NCBI GenBank assembly: GCA_003155915.1
Contig: PMFA01000005.1
Location: 217,526-281,525, forward strand
DNA from: Acidimicrobiaceae bacterium
Lineage (GTDB): Bacteria > Actinomycetota > Acidimicrobiia > Acidimicrobiales > RAAP-2
Direction: 5' to 3'
Length of the DNA stretch: 64,000 nucleotides
In this document: positions 43,962 to 45,553 of the stretch, piece after piece
How the letters are laid out: each line of letters opens with the position of its first letter
Numbering within the stretch: position 1 is the first letter of the stretch
The notes under the pieces: model-generated
Database searches by the model: none
What the model was told of the DNA's origin: nothing
The model's input: only the letters and a program-made list of their open reading frames with translations
Position numbers and translations under genes: made by a program

Positions 43962-44011
43962 GTGACGCGGCTCTCTCGTAGCACATAAAACGTGAAAGGG
44001 TGAGTACACCC

Positions 44012-44050
44012 AAAAAGTGAAGAGTTTTGAGTCGACTTTTCACAATTTTT
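44012..44050 (+). terminator. Intrinsic terminator after the glycosyltransferase gene
   Basis: GTGAAGAG (44017-44024) pairs with CTTTTCAC (44036-44043) with one G-U pair and an 11-base loop, then AATTTTT follows. Flanking AAAAA and TTTTT can extend the stem. It sits 50 bases after the gene stop, in an AT-rich stretch (43962-44138) otherwise without a gene. Confidence 0.55.
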
Positions 44051-44138
44051 ACGCCTAGAGGCCTTTAAATCAGCGGATTATCGAGAGATTTCTCTTTTCC
44101 ACGATTTTTTTGCCGTTCCCAACCCTAAAATGGTCATT

Positions 44139-44265
44139 CCTCCGCTTAATCATCCAAGAGGTGGCCGTTGTGCCATACCTCGGCGGTAGGTCTCGAACCG
44201 TGGACCGTGAGTCCTGAGCGGTTCTCAAGGTGTCGTCGAGGGCGACTTACACAGTTAGGCGGAGG
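44139..44265 (+). promoter_or_regulatory. Structured leader RNA, possible c-di-AMP (ydaO-type) riboswitch
   Basis: Four helices can be drawn. P1 is CCTCCGC (44139-44145) with GCGGAGG (44259-44265); then GAGGTGGC with GCC-AT-ACCTC; GAACCG with CGGTTC enclosing GGAC/GTCC; and GTCG/CGAC. The 3' strand of P1 contains the GGAGG Shine-Dalgarno of the gene at 44273, so P1 formation should block translation. GCTTAATC after P1 and ACAGTTAG before its end resemble conserved ends of ydaO RNAs, which often control actinobacterial wall-lysis genes. The helices are seen; the class is tentative. Confidence 0.5.
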
Positions 44266-44272
44266 ATTCCAA

Positions 44273-44911
44273 ATGATAGAGGCACGCAAACGATTGAAAC
44301 GCGTCCAAGGCCATTCGCGGAGCGTGATCTGGTCGTGCGCGGTGGCGCTCACCATCTCACTGACTCTCTTGCCGACGCCTTCTCCCGCGGCCACGACGTT
44401 TTCCCAGCCCATTCGTGGTGTGGCTGCCGAGACGACCACGCTGTCACCGATTCGTCACGCCGCGCCGCGCATTCGCGTCGTTAGTGTGGTCGTCTCGGCG
44501 ACCACACTGTCACCGATTCGTCACGGCGCGCCGCGCCTCCGGCGCCATCGCGTCGGCGGCGTGGTGGCCGAACTGGCCGACTTCACCAATGACCCGACGC
44601 CGAGCGACGGGTACGTAGTTGGCCTTATTCATCAGGACTTTCCTACACGGGCCTGGCACGACGCCGAGGCCGTGGCGTGGTGTGAATCCAAGTTTCGAAC
44701 GACCGACATCGGCTTTGACAGCGACGGCACCCACGACCGGGGCCTTTTCCAGCTCAATGACGGCGGCACCGAGCAGTATTTGATGGCAATGATCGGTCAA
44801 AACCCCAAGAACCTGAACCTGGCCTTCAATCCCGTGCTCAACGTGCGCGCGGCCGCCCTCTTGTACGCGCGAGACGGCTGGAGTCAGTGGTCCTGCGCTT
44901 CGGCGATCTGA
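44273..44911 (+). CDS. Secreted lysozyme-like (Rpf/transglycosylase-type) protein
   Basis: A 212-residue exported protein. A basic N-terminus and hydrophobic SVIWSCAVALTISLTLLP form a signal peptide. A linker has a 22-residue tandem duplication (TTLSPIRHAAPRIR and TTLSPIRHGAPRLR). The C-terminal lysozyme-like domain has AEAVAWCESKFRTTD with the presumed catalytic Glu, DRGLFQLNDGG, FNPVLNVRAAALLYARDGW and a final WSCASAI. It probably cleaves or remodels peptidoglycan outside the cell. The ATG at 44273 is set by GGAGG seven bases upstream, which lies in the leader RNA stem. Confidence 0.85.
   Translation: MIEARKRLKRVQGHSRSVIWSCAVALTISLTLLPTPSPAATTFSQPIRGVAAETTTLSPIRHAAPRIRVVSVVVSATTLSPIRHGAPRLRRHRVGGVVAELADFTNDPTPSDGYVVGLIHQDFPTRAWHDAEAVAWCESKFRTTDIGFDSDGTHDRGLFQLNDGGTEQYLMAMIGQNPKNLNLAFNPVLNVRAAALLYARDGWSQWSCASAI
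44433..44536 (+). repeat. In-gene tandem duplication in the lysozyme-like gene
   Basis: Two copies of 38 bases (44433-44470 and 44499-44536) differ at two positions and are 66 bases apart, so the reading frame is kept. They encode the duplicated linker segment between signal peptide and catalytic domain. Confidence 0.85.
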
Positions 44912-44938: not shown

Positions 44939-45553
44939 CTACGAAACTCGCCTGATCCTTCTCGCCGCCAACGGCAGTGGCGCCGAGAGGTCGTGCAAGT
45001 GAATGTAGCCAGTGGGCTCCGTGAACGGGGCCCACGTACTCGACGTGTAGCCGTCACTGTCGACGGCGTAGTTGTCCGACACGAGGAATACCGTGCGATT
45101 TGACCAGTCGACGCGCGCGACGTAGGCCACGTGACCCATTCCCGGACCGTCGTACCAGGCGATCGCGCCCACGGCCGGGGTCTGATTCGTCTCGGACGCC
45201 AACGTGAGACCCCACTGATCGGCGTAGCCCCACGGGTGCCCGGGATCGGGCAGTCCGTTGTGCGCGAGCATCCACGCGGCGAACAGCGTGCAGTTGTGTG
45301 GGGGAGTGCCGATGCCATCTTTGGTGTCGCTCCCGTAATACTTGGCGGCCCAACTGTCGTTCATGGTGGTCGCGTTGTACCCGTCGAGCGTGCAGGCGTA
45401 GCCACTGCTCTTGCAGGCCGTCGCCGCACTCGCGGTACTGCTCTGGGTGACGAAGAGGGTAAGTACGAACGTGGCCGCCAATGCGAGACGGAGCAACGTC
45501 ACTACGGCCGAGGCGCGAAGCGCCCGCGCCCGCAATCGTTCGGTGATCGCCAT
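44939..45553 (-). CDS. Secreted CHAP-domain peptidoglycan amidase/endopeptidase
   Basis: A 204-residue exported protein. The signal peptide is hydrophobic around VVTLLRLALAATFVLTLFVT and ends before ATACKSSGYAC. The CHAP domain shows the catalytic Cys in PPHNCTLFAAWML, the GDAxx-like AVGAIAWYDG, and the catalytic His in MGHVAYVARVD. Such enzymes cut peptide cross-bridges or amide bonds in peptidoglycan. It converges with the lysozyme-like gene, giving a pair of secreted wall enzymes. Confidence 0.88.
   Translation of the reverse strand: MAITERLRARALRASAVVTLLRLALAATFVLTLFVTQSSTASAATACKSSGYACTLDGYNATTMNDSWAAKYYGSDTKDGIGTPPHNCTLFAAWMLAHNGLPDPGHPWGYADQWGLTLASETNQTPAVGAIAWYDGPGMGHVAYVARVDWSNRTVFLVSDNYAVDSDGYTSSTWAPFTEPTGYIHLHDLSAPLPLAARRIRRVS

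Follow-up and report, generated by a model that had tools for sequence, protein, structure and literature searches.

In one genus of Acidimicrobiales, the ribosome-binding site of a lysozyme-like gene is very probably hidden by a conserved structured leader

The window, a 64,000-nucleotide stretch from the genome of an Acidimicrobiaceae bacterium (GenBank assembly GCA_003155915.1, contig PMFA01000005.1) whose genus consists of uncultured actinobacteria from soil, contains a gene for a predicted secreted lysozyme or transglycosylase-like protein, a glycosyltransferase gene upstream of it, and a structured leader immediately 5' of its start codon (Table 1). The protein matches the Pfam families SLT_3 (E 2.9e-5, 24.9 bits against a cut-off of 27) and SLT (E 3e-4, 20.8 bits against a cut-off of 21.3), both just below threshold, and orthologues were found in 9 of the 99 genomes of the genus. 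The linker of the protein (44430-44545) bears an apparent tandem duplication, in which ACCACGCTGTCACCGATTCGTCACG is repeated as ACCACACTGTCACCGATTCGTCACG, and alignment places this extra stretch in the window and not in three close relatives. A convergent gene with a CHAP domain (44939-45553), a second putative wall hydrolase, adjoins the lysozyme gene and is also present in genome G034 (locus L031). An N-terminal extension of the lysozyme in its main frame was ruled out, as indels between the window and the congeneric locus L043 break the reading frame.

Table 1. Features of the leader and of the gene that follows it, in window coordinates
Feature	Position	Strand	Basis or remark
Putative -10 promoter box TAAAAT	44126..44131	+	Box and near-constant spacing to the leader in 9/9 homologues
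P1 5' strand CCUCCGC (anti-Shine-Dalgarno)	44139..44145	+	Exact complement of 44259-44265
P2 5' strand GAGGUGGC	44158..44165	+	Pairs with 44172-44181
Possible upstream ORF GUG...UGA (MPYLGGRSRTVDRES)	44170..44217	+	Considered as a rival explanation
P2 3' strand GCC-AU-ACCUC	44172..44181	+	Pairs with the P2 5' strand
Internal Shine-Dalgarno mimic GCGGUAGG (putative antisequestor)	44183..44190	+	Can pair with CCUCCGC, one bulged U
Candidate pseudoknot 5' strand GGUCU	44189..44193	+	Overlaps the mimic; pairs with 44202-44206
P3 5' strand GAACCG	44195..44200	+	Pairs with 44219-44224
Candidate pseudoknot 3' strand GGACC	44202..44206	+	In the P3 loop; pairs with 44189-44193
P3 3' strand CGGUUC	44219..44224	+	Pairs with the P3 5' strand
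P4 hairpin GUCGUC-GAG-GGCGAC	44232..44246	+	3/6 pairs altered on both sides
P1 3' strand GCGGAGG, includes Shine-Dalgarno GGAGG	44259..44265	+	Position before ATG; folding
Predicted secreted lysozyme / transglycosylase-like protein, 212 aa, putatively regulated gene	44273..44911	+	SLT_3, SLT

The initial annotation had described a 7-bp stem, P1, closing a 127-base RNA whose 3' strand is the ribosome site, and had proposed that this stem sequesters the site. Both points were borne out, the complementarity between the two strands being exact and the same element being found at the same place in relatives. The leader measures 127 nt from the first to the last base of P1, and the GGAGG core (44261-44265) lies within the 3' strand, 7 nt 5' of the ATG at 44273. 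For a random 17-mer of local composition, the chance of a 7-bp match to GGCGGAGG is 0.0013. The minimum free energy of the leader is -57.1 kcal/mol as against a mean of -45.25 (sd 4.05) for 200 dinucleotide shuffles (z = -2.93), of which one was as good as the real sequence; in silico the Shine-Dalgarno is unpaired at most 0.9% of the time, and opening it costs 13.1 kcal/mol. This conserved, structured leader very probably hides the ribosome site of the lysozyme-like gene.

The RNA probably begins at P1 itself, with a predicted start at about 44138-44139, because a conserved -10 box ends 7 nt upstream of the stem and the layout is the same in relatives (TAAAAT, TAGAGT or TAGAAT in the nine homologues). 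Further upstream, a block at 44000-44032 (GGTGAGTACACCCAAAAAGTGAAGAGTTTTG) is strongly conserved among the four congeners (93% in 44000-44024) and has counterparts at similar places in G126 (AACCCTTTGATTCAC) and G003 (AACCCTTTGAGTCAC); it may be a regulator-binding site.

Four close leaders were compared, namely those of the window (W), L040 (genome G034), L041 (G109) and L043 (G105), together with a more divergent one from G010 (L054). Among the four congeners the leader is 89% identical and its core 94%; the intergenic DNA upstream reaches 72%, and the lysozyme domain 73% at its third codon positions. Within the leader, conservation peaks in the interior core. The leader of G010 retains GUGGCC...GUGCCA...ACC and GGCGGUAGGU. 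The 5' strand of P1 reads CCTCCGC in six of the nine homologues, with one change in L040 (CCCCCGC), CTTTCGC in G003 and loss in G124. This last leader (L045) keeps AACCAAGCGAGG and GCGGCAGGTCC without the CCUCCGC strand, and sequestration by P1 seems to have been lost or replaced there.

A covariance model (R1) built from five leader sequences found the element in seven species, in each case 5' of the same lysozyme-like gene. Neither G108 (E 0.016 for the genome; 2.8e-4 in a separate search) nor G126 (E 5.6e-6 in about 47 kb) had contributed a leader to its training, and their matches at the expected orthologous positions are an independent check. The genus search gave no match with E <0.2 away from the expected places, and when 397 genomes from the order were scanned with an E limit of 0.05, the model matched only the genome of the window. 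A DNA similarity search with the leader in 61 genomes recovered only G034 above chance. Within the sensitivity of a model made from five sequences, the leader therefore looks confined to one genus and one gene. A pattern search with GTGGCC-TGCCA-GGCGGYRGG over the same 397 genomes was discarded, its other matches being attributable to chance, with a backward control at least as frequent.

The internal helices show compensatory changes in relatives. The interior of the minimum-free-energy fold differs from the one backed by comparison, which is made up of helices P2, P3 and P4 and a possible pseudoknot at P3. In G010, two pairs of P2 are altered on both sides (UGGGU/ACCCA), as are 4/6 pairs of P3 and 2/5 of the candidate pseudoknot; hairpins of other sequence occupy the place of P4 in G010, G108 and G126. 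Counterparts of the pseudoknot could be made out by eye in G108 (GGAC/GUCC) and G003 (GGUC/GACC), and an alternative to it is a hairpin within the P3 loop, GGAC/GUCC (44202-44205 with 44211-44214). In an alignment of five leaders (A4), made by hand, padded with N and fitted to the structure, 97.8% of cells are paired over P1-P4 and 9 pairs are altered on both sides; with the pseudoknot added, 98.1% of cells are paired and 11/32 pairs are altered on both sides, 0/500 shuffles scored as high, and slid controls were 35-49% paired. Compensatory changes are seen in P2, P3, P4 and the possible pseudoknot, but a single divergent relative, G010, accounts for most of the pairs altered on both sides. 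Fold z-scores are weak in G010 (-0.81) and G126 (-0.41). P1 is backed by conservation and not by covariation, because it is nearly invariant, so that covariation in homologous leaders speaks for the internal helices and not for the closing stem. A single consensus fold was not reached across the nine homologues, G003 and G124 being too divergent.

The leader could instead encode a leader peptide, with a ribosome on the GUG upstream ORF at 44170 opening or closing the downstream structure by attenuation. A GAGG stands 8 nt 5' of the GUG, the frame in G108 gives the reading MPRAPGGRASRTV..., in which the residues in common differ mostly by synonymous changes, and that of G010 can be read as MPNPGGR. 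The stop of the window's frame, however, is not kept in L040, L041 or L043: in the first two the frame continues out of phase beyond the start of the lysozyme, and that of L043 joins the lysozyme in phase. The four leaders, the window's included, thus disagree in stop and frame, where an attenuator would have a short ORF and a stop that are both conserved. The changes between the window and L043 are chiefly non-synonymous, GGCGGUAGGU is free of synonymous drift between the window and G010, and P2 and P3 carry compensatory changes. Attenuation by a leader peptide is quite improbable.

In the folded leader, the 5' strand of P1 has a second possible partner. The internal mimic, GCGG-U-AGG, is nearly the ribosome site GCGGAGG with one inserted U, and its region is GGCGGTAGGT unaltered in the window, L040, L041 and G010 and GGCGGCGGGT in L043. 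When growing prefixes of the window's leader were folded, the 5' strand and the mimic paired with a mean probability of 0.98-0.99 in the majority of those ending between nt 52 and nt 118, the value dropping at nt 70, 76, 82 and 106; at full length this pairing is zero, the 5' strand passing to the real site once the 3' end appears. The close leaders behave likewise, the 5' strand pairing first with the mimic and last with the Shine-Dalgarno (probability 0.85-1.0), and prefix folding in L041, L043 and, more weakly, L040 resembles that of the window. The exceptions are L040 and L041, where another helix has taken the mimic by nt 102, before the Shine-Dalgarno appears. Taken leader by leader, the duplex of CCUCCGC with the mimic is within chance, 9-17% of shuffles equalling it in the window, L043 and G010, and worse elsewhere. 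At full length the pairing probability of P1 is lower in G010 (0.36), G108 (0.48) and G126 (0.14) and is essentially lost in G124; the 5' strands of G108 and G126 pair instead within a local hairpin.

In the mechanism that we infer, with its putative antisequestor, candidate pseudoknot, presumed direction of control and possible ligand, the transcript would start with CCUCCGC, a strand with two proposed, mutually exclusive partners, the mimic or the real Shine-Dalgarno. During synthesis CCUCCGC would pair with GCGGUAGG, stacked on hairpin P2, and the real site would be free (ON). Once the 3' end is completed, or the P3 pseudoknot captures the mimic (GGUC/GACC), CCUCCGC would pair with GCGGAGG and translation would stop (OFF). 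Because the AGG of the mimic overlaps the pseudoknot strand, stabilising the pseudoknot would tip the balance towards OFF, and a signal that does so, whether a small molecule or something else, could turn the gene off in the manner of a translational riboswitch. The initial annotation had predicted translational OFF control by a ligand; OFF control is plausible on this scheme, and the ligand is a conjecture within it. That the element is a genus-specific cis-regulatory leader controlling translation of the wall lysozyme by hiding its Shine-Dalgarno, through a switch between mimic and real site, we judge slightly better than an even proposition.

The initial annotation had raised a divergent c-di-AMP (ydaO) RNA, on the strength of the end motifs, or else another class. 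Almost all genes preceded by ydaO in Actinobacteria are wall-related (PMC9960051), as is the SLT_3/SLT-like gene here, whose matches fall just below the Pfam cut-offs. The nlpC gene of Corynebacterium glutamicum is preceded by such a riboswitch (PMC9960051), which, like the present element, lies in the 5' leader of an actinobacterial wall-hydrolase gene with no terminator and appears to act on translation, with OFF control and a GGAG/CUCC pairing proposed (PMC9960051); the theme is shared, and by analogy the present leader could possibly work like this translational switch. The ydaO riboswitch of Streptomyces coelicolor rpfA likewise controls a gene for a peptidoglycan-cleaving enzyme (PMC9960051), the protein here being instead SLT_3/SLT-like. 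The ends of the window's leader do resemble CGCUUAAUC and GUUAGGCGG, but these motifs are not kept in relatives, which have GCUGAAUC, GCGUGACG and GCGUUAAC, and unlike the nlpC and rpfA cases the leader has no RF00379 match; other motifs are conserved in it than in the nlpC switch.

The RF00379 model, run with E limits as loose as 10 on the leader and 5 on eight homologous loci, matched none of them; it also gave no match in the window's own genome and none above cut-off in 100 relatives. Weak ydaO matches in relatives were set aside as chance, the inspected loci lacking a wall-gene leader and several lying apparently in coding sequence or repeats. The diadenylate cyclase (DAC) domain was found in none of the 99 genomes of the genus, with positive controls detected, and was present in 2 of 4 sister-genus genomes and in all 3 tested genomes from other families of the order, which points to an apparent loss of c-di-AMP signalling in the genus. 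A c-di-AMP riboswitch is very unlikely because no enzyme making c-di-AMP was detected in the genus, and the ydaO reading is for us a highly improbable one. Nor did a search of the leader and its relatives with all Rfam classes, at gathering and permissive thresholds, place the leader elsewhere: nothing reached the gathering score, and the sub-threshold matches were implausible, none covering the leader.

With ydaO set aside, the leader might be an orphan riboswitch for another second messenger or metabolite, with c-di-GMP or a related dinucleotide as a sensible first candidate because the carrier genomes are rich in GGDEF domains, with 5-16 matches in each. The compact multi-helix core, with its possible pseudoknot, is joined directly to the Shine-Dalgarno stem. 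On the other side, no Rfam c-di-GMP or other riboswitch class matches, and one gene in one genus is narrow for a riboswitch; we consider this reading possible but doubtful. The translational riboswitches preQ1-II and SAM-II occlude the Shine-Dalgarno, and the leader is like them in that a stem or pseudoknot joined to a folded, conserved core hides this site; unlike them it has no Rfam match, and its 127-nt core is closed by P1.

Alternatively, P1 might be a static or temperature-responsive brake that damps initiation, or adjusts it to temperature, with no ligand involved. RNA thermometers such as ROSE and FourU hold the Shine-Dalgarno in a stem, a trait the leader shares, and here the stem is GC-rich and its first strand opens the RNA. 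Related genomes in public records are Acidimicrobiaceae or Acidimicrobiales MAGs, and the isolate names of several contain 'palsa', which suggests a permafrost peat origin and would suit such a brake. A thermometer, however, needs neither an opening cost of 13 kcal/mol, nor a long-range stem spanning 127 nt, nor a conserved interior, and the conservation is highest in the interior core; unlike ROSE and FourU, the leader is not a local imperfect hairpin and has no Rfam match. We hold a static or thermal brake to be possible, though rather unlikely.

Weighing these comparisons, the leader is best classed as a narrow, orphan, riboswitch-like element. It could represent an undescribed riboswitch class, with a pseudoknotted core and an anti-Shine-Dalgarno strand shared by mimic and real site, serving a muralytic enzyme in a genus without detectable c-di-AMP synthesis, although we would sooner bet against this than for it. 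What is plain is that the leader matches no catalogued RNA family and is an uncatalogued element. Its small size and the explicit choice between mimic and Shine-Dalgarno make it easy to test in vitro. Actinobacteria commonly put wall-cleaving enzymes under c-di-AMP riboswitches; if the reading given here is true, then in a genus where no diadenylate cyclase was found the control point of a wall lysozyme can be filled by a different RNA.
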